Assembly (NCBI GenBank): GCA_020061125.1
Contig: JAGUYV010000202.1
Coordinates: 1-5,459 of the forward strand
From: a bacterium
GTDB taxonomy: Bacteria > UBP15 > UBA6099 > DSWB01
Length of the DNA stretch: 5,459 nt
Direction of reading: 5' to 3'
Position 1 is the first letter of the stretch; each line of letters opens with the position of its first letter. The notes under the pieces are model-generated. The model made no database searches. It saw only the letters and a list, made by a program, of their open reading frames with translations, and had not been told where the DNA came from. Made by a program: the position numbers and the translations under genes. Positions 1 to 5,459 of this stretch are shown piece by piece.

Positions 1-2075
1 TCCACAAATTTCCATACGGAACTGTCAAACGGCGAAAATATGAATCTCGGCATGTACAGGGTCTTTTTCTCTTTGTCAAAATAATAATCCCCGTGAACGC
101 GGCACCATTGTCCGGGTCCGCCTTTGCACAGCACCTGGATCGTGTTGCGTTCCCGCAGCATTTCCGCATGCACGGGAAAAGCGAACCACTGCCGGAAATC
201 CGTGTATTCGAGACCCCGCACGCGCCGGTAATGCTCATAGGTTCCGCTCAAGAACCCGAAAAAGCCTGGCCGTTCGCGCACGGGTTCCCCGGCCCGTTTC
301 AGGATTGTGCCGTTGAGCCTGATTTCAAGGGGCGAGAGATCCGGGGGGCGCGTTTGCGCATCCAGGAACAGCGTCACGCTGCGGATGTCGCCGATCGGCA
401 AATCTCGCGGCTCGATTACCTGCTCGATTCCCCGGTGATCTTTGCTGAATGTATGCGCCCATGATAGGTTGTCTCTATTGGCCAGAACCATGGCCGCAAG
501 CGACGCGAACACCGCGGCCGTGAACAGCACGGAGGCGGCGCGCCATGCGGGGCGTGCATTGGCGCGGTTCGCGGCGCGCGAACACCCCTCCAGAAACACG
601 ATGCCAAAGCCTGCCAGCGCGAGCAGTCCCAGGGCTTTGAACGCAGCTTCCGGCGCCTCCAGCGCAAACAGGTTGAGTTTCAATGAATACATAGCGAACA
701 GAGCACAGGATGCGGCGAGAACGATCTTGAGGCGCGCATTCTCGATGGAACGCGCTGCAAAGCCCGGCCCCGCGGCCGCGCCCCAGGCAGCGAACACAAT
801 CCATACAGGCATGAAGGGCAGGTTGTAACGGGCCAGTGCGATGGTCAGTCCATGTGTGAGGCAAGCGTGCAGGATGAGCACGGCGGGCAGGGCCGCGGCC
901 GGGAAGGCGGCGACGGCTGCGATCATGCCCGCAAGCCCAAGCAGCATCACGGCCAGATGCGCCGCGCGCCAGATCCGCGCGGGCAGAATAAAATCAACGG
1001 AAAATTCATTTTGCGGGCGGGACCACATGCGCGCGTTCTTGTTGAAGAATAGAAGCGCGAAATCCGCGGGCCGTTTCCCGATTTCCTTGAAGGCCGCGCG
1101 CTTATATTCGTCCTCCGTGGGAAGAGCGGATGCAGTTTCCGCGTCCCAGCCCGGAATTTCCGCGAACCAGAAGTCGTCCTGCCAGCCCGCGGTTTCCTGT
1201 CTCTGGCCGATGAAGAGGGCAAGCCCTCCCTGACCCGGCGCAAGCCATTGTCCGAACACGGCCTTGAGCGTGAACATCCAGGGCAGCGCGAAAATCGTGA
1301 AAGCCAGGACGGCGGGAAGCAATGCGCGCGCTGCGGATTTCACGGATTGGCCTCTGGCGAGCAGGATAATCGCATAGGCCGGGAACACGAACAAGGGCAG
1401 CAACTGGAATGCGTGTCGGCATGCGAACAGAAGGAACAGGAGCAAGCCCGCGCAGGCGGCGTGGCGCGCGCGCCCGTTGTCAATCATGGCGTGCGATGCG
1501 GCCAGAAGCGCCACGATCAGAAACGCCGACAGGGTTTCGGACATCACGAAATGCGGCGAAACCGCCAGAGGCGGATACAGGGCATAGAGCCACATGGCGA
1601 ACACACCGGTTTTCGCGTTGAACATCCTGGCCGCAAGGAAAAACACCAGCAGGCAGGTGAACGAATCCAGAAGAGCCTGGGCAATGGAAATGAAGATGAT
1701 TTTGTGAGTGAAAAACCTGATGGCGGCCAGAAAGGCGGGATAGGCGATGAGGCGCGCGTTGATGTGGCTGATGTGCGAGAACCCGCGATCTTCCGCGATC
1801 TGCTTGAGGGATTTGCGATCCTTTCCCGAATCGCTCAAATCCGAAAGCATGCCCAGGGCGAGGCCCGGGGATCTCATGAGCCGCGCCATGTCGTCGGCCA
1901 CGCCCATGTACGCCACGGAGTCGAAGTAAATCGCGGGCGTATTTGTGGTGAAGGTGAAGCCCAGTCGCAGAGCCGCTGCCGTGATCAGCGCGGCAAGGAT
2001 CCAGAGGCGCATGTTTCCGCCGGGCAGGGCGCGGGTTCGTTCCGGGGCTTGTCCGGCATAAGTCTCTTCGATCAT
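1..2075 (-). CDS. GT-C (GT39/PMT/ArnT-like) membrane glycosyltransferase, 3' end missing
   Basis: Reading the minus strand from ATG at 2075 gives 691 codons without a stop, running off the left edge, so the C-terminus is missing. Seen: residues 1-22 are polar, then come about 12 hydrophobic segments (roughly 24-43, 110-150, 154-172, 180-197, 205-241, 250-272, 367-415, 419-438, 449-470, 478-496, 511-531). The first loop carries FDSVAYMGVADDM (51-63; D52, Y56), the usual place of the GT-C catalytic acid. Further family signatures are SPHFVMSETLSAF (173-185) and ARYNLPFMPVW (415-425). Family knowledge: such enzymes transfer sugars from polyprenyl-phosphate carriers on the periplasmic face. Residues about 560-691 form a soluble, beta-rich tail, probably periplasmic because the loop before the last membrane segment (498-512) is basic. 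GGAGAGG (2087-2093) lies 11 bases before the ATG and supports this start; M22 (codon at 2012) is an alternative. The gene begins 31 bases after the methyltransferase stop, so the two are probably co-transcribed. Donor and acceptor are unknown. Confidence 0.85.
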   Translation of the reverse strand, partial: MIEETYAGQAPERTRALPGGNMRLWILAALITAAALRLGFTFTTNTPAIYFDSVAYMGVADDMARLMRSPGLALGMLSDLSDSGKDRKSLKQIAEDRGFSHISHINARLIAYPAFLAAIRFFTHKIIFISIAQALLDSFTCLLVFFLAARMFNAKTGVFAMWLYALYPPLAVSPHFVMSETLSAFLIVALLAASHAMIDNGRARHAACAGLLLFLLFACRHAFQLLPLFVFPAYAIILLARGQSVKSAARALLPAVLAFTIFALPWMFTLKAVFGQWLAPGQGGLALFIGQRQETAGWQDDFWFAEIPGWDAETASALPTEDEYKRAAFKEIGKRPADFALLFFNKNARMWSRPQNEFSVDFILPARIWRAAHLAVMLLGLAGMIAAVAAFPAAALPAVLILHACLTHGLTIALARYNLPFMPVWIVFAAWGAAAGPGFAARSIENARLKIVLAASCALFAMYSLKLNLFALEAPEAAFKALGLLALAGFGIVFLEGCSRAANRANARPAWRAASVLFTAAVFASLAAMVLANRDNLSWAHTFSKDHRGIEQVIEPRDLPIGDIRSVTLFLDAQTRPPDLSPLEIRLNGTILKRAGEPVRERPGFFGFLSGTYEHYRRVRGLEYTDFRQWFAFPVHAEMLRERNTIQVLCKGGPGQWCRVHGDYYFDKEKKTLYMPRFIFSPFDSSVWKFV

Positions 2076-2106: not shown

Positions 2107-2964
2107 TCAAATTTTTCGGGCGTACACCGTGACGGTGTCGAAGAAGTTCACGGGAATCACGATCCGGTTCAGAATGTTTTTGAGAAATCCGGGCCGTTTG
2201 TGCCTGTCCGGGTTTCGTCCGAACGCTTTGTACACGCGCTCCACGAGATAATCCAGAGAGAAGAACAGGAATTCCGAATGCGCGAAAAGGATCTCGAATC
2301 CGGATTCGCGGAGCATTTCTTGCAGCGTGCGTTTCGAGAAGAAGTGCAGGTGTTCGGGGATGATGAACAGGTGCCAGTAGCGTCCGCACACGCGGGCGAA
2401 AAGGCTGTCTGCGTTGCAGGTGTAGATGCCGCACACGCCTCCCGGTTTCAAAATGTCGTGGATTCCCTTGAGGCTCCGTAGCGGGTCGTTGAAATGCTCG
2501 ATCATGTTCCACAAAGTCACGGCGTCGAACGACTCCGGTTCGAAAAGCGCGGGATCGAACAAGCCGCGGGTGACGCTGTTGCCTCTTTGCGCCGCAGCGT
2601 CGCACGCGAACCCGGAAATGTCTATTCCACGGGCGGTCCAGTTGCTTGAAAGAGACTCCATAAAAAAGCCTGGGCCGCAGCCGATGTCCAGCAGCGCGCC
2701 GCCGCTTTGGAATTTTTCGATGATTCTGATTCTTCGCCTGAAGTTGATTTTGAGATGCCGTTCCCCGGCGAAATAGTCCCCGTAGCCGCCGTCGCAGTCC
2801 TTGTTCACGAAATAATCTTCGGAGTACAGGGCTTCGAGTTCCGCCGCCTGGGGTTGCAGGTCCAGGTATTTGTGCCCGCACTCGCCGCAGCGCACGATGA
2901 GGCCGCCCTTTTTTTCCATGAAAGGCAACGGGGATTCATTTCCGCACAGGACGCAATGTTTCAC
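2107..2964 (-). CDS. Class I SAM-dependent methyltransferase with N-terminal zinc ribbon
   Basis: The 285-residue protein opens with a four-cysteine ribbon (C4-x2-C7 and C26-x2-C29) that probably binds zinc. A Rossmann-type methyltransferase domain follows: motif I LLDIGCGPGFF (91-101) for SAM binding, GIDIS with acidic D115 at the end of strand 2 (ribose binding), FDAVTLWNMIEHFNDP (146-161), and ILKPGG (171-176). The segment PEHLHFFS (203-210) is common in Methyltransf_23-like enzymes of polysaccharide loci. No membrane segment or signal peptide is seen, so it should be cytoplasmic. The start is GTG at 2964; the frame upstream has no ATG before a stop, and GGAG (2974-2977) sits 9 bases before the GTG. 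A promoter lies just upstream, and the GT-C gene follows after 31 bases. The ribbon recalls sugar C-methyltransferases of the TylC3/NovU type, but those are about 400 residues with an extra C-terminal domain that is absent here. Class is firm; substrate (sugar, lipid or other) is unknown. Confidence 0.9.
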   Translation of the reverse strand: MKHCVLCGNESPLPFMEKKGGLIVRCGECGHKYLDLQPQAAELEALYSEDYFVNKDCDGGYGDYFAGERHLKINFRRRIRIIEKFQSGGALLDIGCGPGFFMESLSSNWTARGIDISGFACDAAAQRGNSVTRGLFDPALFEPESFDAVTLWNMIEHFNDPLRSLKGIHDILKPGGVCGIYTCNADSLFARVCGRYWHLFIIPEHLHFFSKRTLQEMLRESGFEILFAHSEFLFFSLDYLVERVYKAFGRNPDRHKRPGFLKNILNRIVIPVNFFDTVTVYARKI

Positions 2965-3044: not shown

Positions 3045-4058
3045 TCAGTCATAGCCGTGGCGGGTGCGGAAATAATTGATGAGCGCATGGGGATCCAGGC
3101 CGAACATGAGGTTGGCTTCCACACGCTCGCCGCACCAGCATTGCGAGCATTCGGTGCAGGATTTCCGTTTCTGTTCGAACGGCGCCATGAGGCCCGTTTG
3201 CAGAATGTTGCCGCATGGGGCTTCGGTGCCCTGGCTGCTGCCGCATGCGAAGAGATTTCCGGCCGGATCAATCTGGCAGAAGAACCGGCCCGCGCCGCAG
3301 GTGATGGGCGCGTCGTCGGGCCATCGCATGAGATGGCGCAGCCCCTTGACCGAGTTGAGGATGGCGCGCGGGAATTTTTCCTTGAGCTCGATCACATGGT
3401 TGATGAGAGCACGGAAGACCTGCGGGTCCGGGGCGTCCGGGTTGGGGTCGGAAGTGCCGAGCTGCACGGCCAGCAGGGGCTGGAAGCTCACGGGCGCTCC
3501 GTATTCCGCGGCGGTTTTGACGACATCCTCGATGTCATTCTCGCCGGTGTGGCGGCTTATGACGCTGGTGATTTTGGCGGGGATCCCGTATTCGCGCAAA
3601 GCGGCCAGCGCCGCCAGAACCGACTCGAACGACCCTGGCCCGCGGGCCGCGTCGTGTGTTTCGGAACCGCCGTCCAGGCTCAAGCTGATTCCGGCCGCGC
3701 CCGCGAGCGCATCGAGTTTTTCCGGCACCAGCAGCCCGTTGCTGCTCACGGACACGCGAACGCCCGCGTGATTGAGCCGCTCGATGATGTCCCCGAGCGC
3801 GGGGTGCAGCAGGGGTTCGCCGCCCGTGAGGTTGATGCGCCAGACTTTGTTCGCGGCCGCTTCCTCAATCACGCGGTCTATGACCGGGGCCTCGGCATGG
3901 CCCAGGCCGCCGCGCCCGCGCCCGCATTTCAGGCAGTGCATGTTGCATTTGTCCGTAATGAACCAACTCACGAACAATGGGCGGAACCTGCCCATGAATC
4001 TGGATTCGAGAAAGTCTTTTTTCATTGATTCCACGATTGCTTTTTCGTATTTGCGCAA
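3045..4058 (-). CDS. Radical SAM protein with SPASM-type auxiliary cluster domain
   Basis: The 337-residue product has the radical SAM motif CNMHCLKC (C38, C42, C45), which binds the 4Fe-4S cluster that cleaves SAM. TGGEPL (78-83) is the SAM-binding GGE motif, and SSNG (105-108) and LSLDG (126-130) are later barrel strands typical of the MoaA/PqqE/SPASM group. The C-terminal part has C254-x12-G267-x4-C272, which fits the SPASM pattern, plus C261, C282 and a compact C301-x2-C304-x2-C307-x-C309, so at least one auxiliary Fe-S cluster is likely. No membrane segment is seen; it should be cytoplasmic. The start is uncertain: TTG 4058 is the longest reading after an in-frame stop at 4074-4076 and has no clear Shine-Dalgarno; ATG 4025 (residue 12) is the main alternative, with only a weak GGA before it. 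SPASM enzymes modify peptides or small molecules; with a methyltransferase and GT-C genes as neighbours, a glycan or lipid precursor is possible. No precursor peptide gene was found in the window. Confidence 0.88.
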   Translation of the reverse strand: MRKYEKAIVESMKKDFLESRFMGRFRPLFVSWFITDKCNMHCLKCGRGRGGLGHAEAPVIDRVIEEAAANKVWRINLTGGEPLLHPALGDIIERLNHAGVRVSVSSNGLLVPEKLDALAGAAGISLSLDGGSETHDAARGPGSFESVLAALAALREYGIPAKITSVISRHTGENDIEDVVKTAAEYGAPVSFQPLLAVQLGTSDPNPDAPDPQVFRALINHVIELKEKFPRAILNSVKGLRHLMRWPDDAPITCGAGRFFCQIDPAGNLFACGSSQGTEAPCGNILQTGLMAPFEQKRKSCTECSQCWCGERVEANLMFGLDPHALINYFRTRHGYD

Positions 4059-4128: not shown

Positions 4129-5459
4129 TCAGGGAGTTTTTATGCGGAATCCTCCGGCCGCGGAAGGCACGAATGCGTAACGCCCGTCCAGGGAAAAAGT
4201 CACATCGCGCGCGCGTGGACCGACGCGATGTTCGCTGATCACGCGCATGGTTGCAGTGTCCACGAAGAACACGCGGCCGTGAATATTGTCCACGGACGCA
4301 ACGAGCCTTCCGTCCGGGGCAACGGCCGTGAAACGCACCCCTGGGCACAGGGCAGCGCACCGCATCTCGCGCAGATCGGGCAGGCGGCGTTCGCACAGGC
4401 GGCCGTCCAGAAACCCGTTCACATAAACCAGGGGCTTGCCGGGGTGCGCGGATACGGCGCCCTGGTCCGTGCCGTCGTCGTTGCGCGCCGAGGCGCCGCG
4501 AGTGACGGTTTCCGCGTCCCCGGCGATATTGAAAACTTTGAGGTAATTCTTGGCGACGAAAACCAGGCTGCGGCCGTTCAGCGCCAAATATTTCCCGGCG
4601 TTGCGTGTTGTGGACAGGCGTTCGCCTGCGCTCGTGTCGAGAATGTGCAGCGAGTGATATTCATCGGTAATGAAAAGCCTGCTCATTTTTGGTGAATACG
4701 CCATGTCCAGCAGCAGGCGCTGCCCGAGGCGAATGGTTTTTTCAAGGCGAGGCTGTGAACCGGAAACATCAAGGACATTGACCAGGCCTTCGTCATACAG
4801 CGCAAAGAAAACTTTGTTTTTTTCGCAATCTTTTGCGATCCGGTTGGCCGCGGCGCTGCCTCCCATTCTTTGTGTCACGATGCGGTACGCCCGGCCCGCG
4901 CTCTGATCCCACACGATCAGGCCCGGGCGTCCCTTGCGCGTTGTGAGAAAATACATGCCGTCGCGGCAGCCCGGTGTGAGCGAGTACACCTGGGAGTTGC
5001 CGATGATTTTTTTCACGGCGTCGTCCGGCGCGTAGGAGTAAACCGGTTCCACGGCGCCGGGGATGGAATAGCGCGCCGCGCCTCCTGCGTCCGTGTAGAA
5101 GTAGAACGCGGCCAGGCGTGCGAACAGAAGCGCGGCGGCTATTGTGCAGGCCAGGTGAATCGCGTTCGCCCGGGACAGCGCGGCGCGCGTGGGCAAACCC
5201 ATGAGAGCCGCGGTCAGTGTTGCTGCGCCCGCCGCGACAAGCAGAGCTGGAGAATGCGAGGCCGCAGCCAGGATCCAGCCCGTGGCCGCAGCGCCCCACA
5301 CCAGGGCAGCCGCCAGCCGGGTCCGTCCCCTCCACGCGGCTAACGCAAAAGCCAATCCAAACAGGGCTGCACCCGCTGGCCAGGCCACACCGAAAAGCGG
5401 CTGCCATTGCCGCACAAGATATCTCTGCAATGTGAATGAATAGAAAATCATGTACAGCA
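4129..5459 (-). CDS. Membrane protein with C-terminal YVTN/YncE-like beta-propeller, 5' end probably missing
   Basis: From the first ATG (5451) to TGA (4129-4131) the product has 440 residues, but the frame stays open to the right edge (two more codons, CTG TAC), so the true start may lie outside. Residues 1-15 are polar-aromatic (SFTLQRYLVRQW), followed by four membrane segments (about 16-40, 44-64, 68-86, 96-118). Basic residues at 41-45 and 87-94 place those loops in the cytoplasm, which puts both the N-terminal edge and the C-terminal domain outside. Residues about 135-440 are beta-propeller-like: repeats such as MAYSPKMSRLFITDEYHSLHILD (250-272, in parts), FTAVAPDGRLVASVDN (374-389) and VTFSLDGRYAFVPS (417-430) match the 'P-DG-lyV' blade pattern. 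C161, C209, C353, C365 and C369 could form disulfides. An outside N-terminal edge suggests further membrane segments upstream, so this may be the 3' part of a larger GT-C-like enzyme. The propeller could bind ligand or partner; no catalytic residues are recognised. Confidence 0.75.
   Translation of the reverse strand, partial: LYMIFYSFTLQRYLVRQWQPLFGVAWPAGAALFGLAFALAAWRGRTRLAAALVWGAAATGWILAAASHSPALLVAAGAATLTAALMGLPTRAALSRANAIHLACTIAAALLFARLAAFYFYTDAGGAARYSIPGAVEPVYSYAPDDAVKKIIGNSQVYSLTPGCRDGMYFLTTRKGRPGLIVWDQSAGRAYRIVTQRMGGSAAANRIAKDCEKNKVFFALYDEGLVNVLDVSGSQPRLEKTIRLGQRLLLDMAYSPKMSRLFITDEYHSLHILDTSAGERLSTTRNAGKYLALNGRSLVFVAKNYLKVFNIAGDAETVTRGASARNDDGTDQGAVSAHPGKPLVYVNGFLDGRLCERRLPDLREMRCAALCPGVRFTAVAPDGRLVASVDNIHGRVFFVDTATMRVISEHRVGPRARDVTFSLDGRYAFVPSAAGGFRIKTP

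Follow-up and report, generated by a model that had tools for sequence, protein, structure and literature searches.

A truncated reading frame at a UBP15 contig end most likely encodes a polytopic membrane protein with an outward-facing YVTN/YncE-like propeller

The reading frame that runs off the right edge of the window (the whole stretch of DNA analysed, 5,459 nucleotides, from a bacterium of the phylum UBP15) most likely encodes an inner-membrane protein, of whose roughly 510-530 residues the C-terminal ~85% are present; the protein is made up of about seven transmembrane (TM) helices and one propeller on the outside. We give this explanation somewhat better than even chances; its functional part, on its own less likely than not, is that the protein serves as a non-catalytic module for binding or scaffolding, anchored in the membrane. 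The features of the window that bear on this reading are the following.

4129-5457, minus strand: frame of the seven-helix propeller protein, truncated on its 5' side by the contig end; 442 of an estimated 510-530 codons can be seen
5341-5397, minus strand: hydrophobic helix, residues 21-39, corresponding to TM4 of complete relatives
5260-5316, minus strand: hydrophobic helix, residues 48-66, corresponding to TM5
5194-5250, minus strand: hydrophobic helix, residues 70-88, corresponding to TM6
5098-5154, minus strand: hydrophobic helix, residues 102-120, corresponding to TM7; the extracytoplasmic part follows
4132-5052, minus strand: seven-bladed YncE/YVTN-like beta-propeller, residues 136-442; last blade with the family motif GPRARDVTFSLDG...PSAAGGF
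4825-4968, minus strand: stretch from C164 to C211, two co-conserved cysteines that may form a disulfide
3045-4058, minus strand: radical SAM protein with a cysteine-rich, SPASM-like tail, 70 bases downstream of the propeller gene on the same strand
2107-2964, minus strand: SAM-dependent methyltransferase (Methyltransf_23)
3-2075, minus strand: separate GT-C-like glycosyltransferase gene (PMT_2, sub-threshold match)

The frame is open from the contig edge to a stop at 4129-4131 (440 codons if counted from the ATG at 5451). Markov randomisation of the region (2000 sequences, composition kept) gave longest open runs with a median of 195 codons, 365 at the 99th percentile and 441 at most. Given that the frame exceeds every randomised run and that its GC3 of 0.71 is near that of the other three window genes (0.73-0.79), the reading frame is genuine. 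The right edge could not be extended because it coincides with the end of contig C504, of which the window is the whole (the assembly has 513 contigs, 4.1 Mb, and is 79% complete). A profile search of the same genome found the missing N-terminal piece on no other contig, although a stretch of only 70 residues may escape such a search. The window also had no match among plasmids, either as DNA or as protein, and none in PHROG.

What the contig end removes can be gauged from complete relatives. A single-protein search of the genome contigs returned none, whereas a narrower, alignment-based search gave matches, and a relative was found in six of the seven genomes of the same phylum. The complete relatives in the phylum are 514-543 aa long and those from genomes G320 and G294 about 495-523 aa; their architecture is a bundle of about seven N-terminal helices followed by one extracytoplasmic seven-bladed YncE/YVTN-like propeller. 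In alignments with these proteins, window residue ~22 falls at their residue ~91-115, and from this offset the window lacks roughly 70-90 residues, room for about three helices. Identity between the window protein and its relatives is only about 17-28%; with that in mind, we infer from the alignment that the missing end would match the relatives' N-terminus. Set against a family of about seven helices plus a C-terminal propeller in ~495-543 aa, the window shows four helices and the propeller, while the first three helices would fall beyond the contig end.

Hydropathy at a single threshold gave these four segments in the window part, six or seven in complete phylum relatives and five in the G320 and G294 proteins. 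The basic loops between helices agree with an N-terminus inside and a propeller outside, and we infer that the propeller sits on the outer face of the membrane. The first-pass annotation had suggested that the sequence in view is an inner piece of a polytopic protein and that its N-terminal edge lies outside; alignment to the complete relatives supports both points and places the edge at the TM3-TM4 junction.

The same annotation had gone on to read the fragment as an internal piece of a GT-C glycosyltransferase, with a catalytic core beyond the contig end fused to the propeller. This would suit a polytopic fragment whose N-terminal edge is outside, and separate GT-C genes do adjoin family members. 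However, such a core needs several hundred upstream residues and the relatives have fewer than about 115, so the fusion is not supported; complete relatives are all 495-543 aa, add only ~70-90 residues to what is visible, and have short first extracytoplasmic loops (where clearest, about 1-8 residues long) with no long loop bearing a catalytic Asp. When a helix-bundle profile built from eight members was compared by hhalign with a GT-C profile built from six proteins of the window and family neighbourhoods, the probability was 0.1%. The seven phylum genomes contain 118 PMT_2 matches, and in no case does one of them occupy a single open frame together with a family propeller; no PMT family match was found in any member scanned. 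The supposed resemblance of the opening segment to RYNLPFMPVW of the GT-C gene fared no better: the best BLASTP alignment between the window protein and the window GT-C protein (3-2075) has E = 5.7 and lies elsewhere in the protein. The GT-C identity, guessed from a short hydrophobic motif, is not supported by sequence comparison, and with the evidence from relatives added we consider the fusion extremely improbable. A quite unlikely possibility of another kind is that translation truly begins at the ATG at 5451, in which case the 440 aa, with their four helices and outside propeller, would be the entire protein. Paralogs of only 449-468 aa, for which about four helices are predicted, do occur (G001:C16 and G001:C71), but the closest relatives align through that point into more upstream helices, and a ribosome-binding motif is absent from the eight visible bases before the ATG. 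A seven-helix protein cut by the contig end is our preferred reading, and the case illustrates that truncation at a contig end can mimic an enzyme fusion until complete relatives are compared.

Residues 136-440 of the window protein are predicted to form propeller beta strands. In the AlphaFold2 model of a full-length relative (locus L036), seven blades have pLDDT of about 80-94 and stand behind seven N-terminal helices with pLDDT under 50; the model of the window protein has the same helices and a propeller but is less certain (mean pLDDT 58.7). The L036 model arranges seven four-stranded blades as a single ring, and the propeller of the less certain window model matches as well. By Foldseek and VIA-align, the best structural neighbour of the L036 propeller is E. 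coli YncE (Z 29.8, 288 residues, 2.7 A, 15% identity), closely followed by many unrelated propellers. In sequence, the last blades match 1L0Q, the YVTN surface protein of Methanosarcina. The original assignment of the C-terminus as an extracytoplasmic YVTN-type propeller is upheld, as YVTN/YncE-type. No curated YncE/YVTN model scored above its cut-off, the only matches being weak ones to NF052280 (in two of eight members) and TIGR02276 (in one of eight), and no Pfam match exceeded the gathering score in the members scanned. TIGR03866 covers two blades with E 1.2e-07 and 31.2 bits, below its 287-bit cut-off. Weak propeller matches were also seen to hydrazine synthase beta and cytochrome d1-type proteins. 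Both C164 and C211 are present in seven of eight diverse members (the window, L012, L013, L019, L097, L098 and L099) and both are absent in the eighth (L017); being kept together in seven and lost together in the other, they suggest a disulfide.

With the family profile, 9 of 386 genomes gave strong full-length or near-full-length matches: six belong to the phylum, and the other three, G041, G294 and G320, fall outside by their kinship label. Each phylum genome has 3-10 profile matches, and the window's own genome has seven further ones with E below 1e-5; most of these paralogs carry a C-terminal propeller behind three to about seven helices, and two are cut by contig ends. We conclude that this is an uncharacterised family with divergent propeller paralogs, new here; a literature search returned nothing on phylum UBP15 or on the bundle-plus-propeller architecture. 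One match (G005:C617) was excluded as a different, phosphoesterase-like protein.

A set of longer paralogs, 794-834 aa, was also noted (L071 7309-9693(-), L080 4614-7076(-), L083 4201-6705(+), L088 4414-6918(+) and L089 6943-9405(-)). They have 8-10 helices, arranged as one N-terminal helix, a charged proline-rich linker, about eight more helices and the propeller, and four of the five stand tail to tail with a second, shorter paralog. A long gap after helix 1 made them look like GT-C fusions; we rejected this, as the gap proved to be the charged linker and the two that were scanned gave no PMT match. Elsewhere, at L032, L087 and L079 (G000:C300, G005:C214 and G001:C188), propeller matches lie in short frames with one internal stop or a contig-end cut; these are possibly pseudogenes or assembly errors.

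Genes for enzymes recur beside family members. Separate GT-C genes adjoin them at L033, the L066/L067/L070/L075 group, L071 and L078, and radical-SAM neighbours, often B12-binding, occur at the window, L030, L033, the L013 group, L019, the L080/L083/L088/L089 group, the L066 group and L012. A GT-C gene is directly adjacent in 3-4 of ~23 independent loci against about 0.2 expected from gene density. A radical-SAM gene lies within two genes in 8 of the ~23 loci against about 1.9 expected on the same background. Both comparisons are approximate: the grouping into loci was in part manual, a distance-based GT-C count has the window among its loci and one locus entered twice, and genes for enzymes tend to lie in clusters. 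Neither kind of neighbour is present at most paralogs. The ortholog of the window's radical-SAM protein in G001 (49%) has no propeller gene nearby; it is housed at L092 5388-13908 (G001:C47), among five radical-SAM-like genes (by motif) and a flippase-like membrane protein. At L033 2464-7677(+) a B12 radical-SAM gene is followed by GT-C and propeller paralog genes with overlapping ends, likely an operon. The seven phylum genomes have a very high density of radical-SAM matches (49-106 in each, 527 over 27 Mb in all). Near family members in two distant genomes lie genes for membrane multihaem cytochromes c that are homologous to each other (phmmer E 1.1e-58), at L031 3872-5947(-) and L099 4981-7110(+).

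On the strength of this neighbourhood, we tentatively propose that the protein is a non-catalytic, membrane-anchored binding or scaffold module for envelope-building enzymes. The propeller would hold a polymer, a lipid-linked glycan or a partner protein for the enzymes of neighbouring genes (GT-C transferases, radical-SAM enzymes and methyltransferases engaged in building the envelope), and divergent paralogs would give differing partner or ligand specificities. A broader version, which we regard as rather speculative, is that an undescribed polytopic propeller family, with several divergent copies per UBP15 genome, supplies GT-C and B12-radical-SAM enzymes with partner subunits that face outward, as part of an envelope-building pathway specific to the lineage. 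About as doubtful is a membrane sensor or receptor whose propeller binds an external ligand and whose helices signal inward; a polytopic bundle with an outside binding domain is what one would expect of it and a divergent paralog set suits ligand diversity, but complete relatives have no cytoplasmic signalling domain and no kinase or regulator is a consistent neighbour at family loci. Less likely still is a redox or electron-transfer component in which the propeller partners the membrane multihaem cytochromes. The cytochrome genes just described and the weak matches to hydrazine synthase beta and cytochrome d1-type proteins would speak for this; however, the cytochromes occur at two loci only, most loci being without them, and the haem-binding motif CxxCH is absent from the window protein. 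We favor the binding or scaffold module. That a single uncultured phylum has multiplied a propeller on an uncharacterised polytopic bundle, with links to GT-C and radical-SAM genes, points to an envelope chemistry not yet described.

Propeller domains are common, and several known systems resemble this family in part. GT-C glycosyltransferases (PMT_2, PF13231; PMT, PF02366) are likewise polytopic but occur as separate neighbouring genes, and the window's family lacks both their first loop bearing the catalytic Asp and any sequence or profile similarity to them. The PQQ-dependent catabolism-associated beta-propeller (TIGR03866) shows only a weak two-blade likeness, its score being far under the cut-off (31 vs 287 bits). 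The last blades match by sequence the Methanosarcina surface-layer YVTN protein (PDB 1L0Q) and leptospiral Lp49 (PDB 3BWS), the latter also in fold; both have another architecture around the propeller and are not known to carry a polytopic bundle of this type. The closest likeness is to the seven-bladed propeller of E. coli YncE (PDB 3VGZ, 7SEU), the best structural match. YncE is a soluble periplasmic protein, whereas the window's family has, besides the propeller, about seven bundled membrane helices and two co-conserved cysteines.
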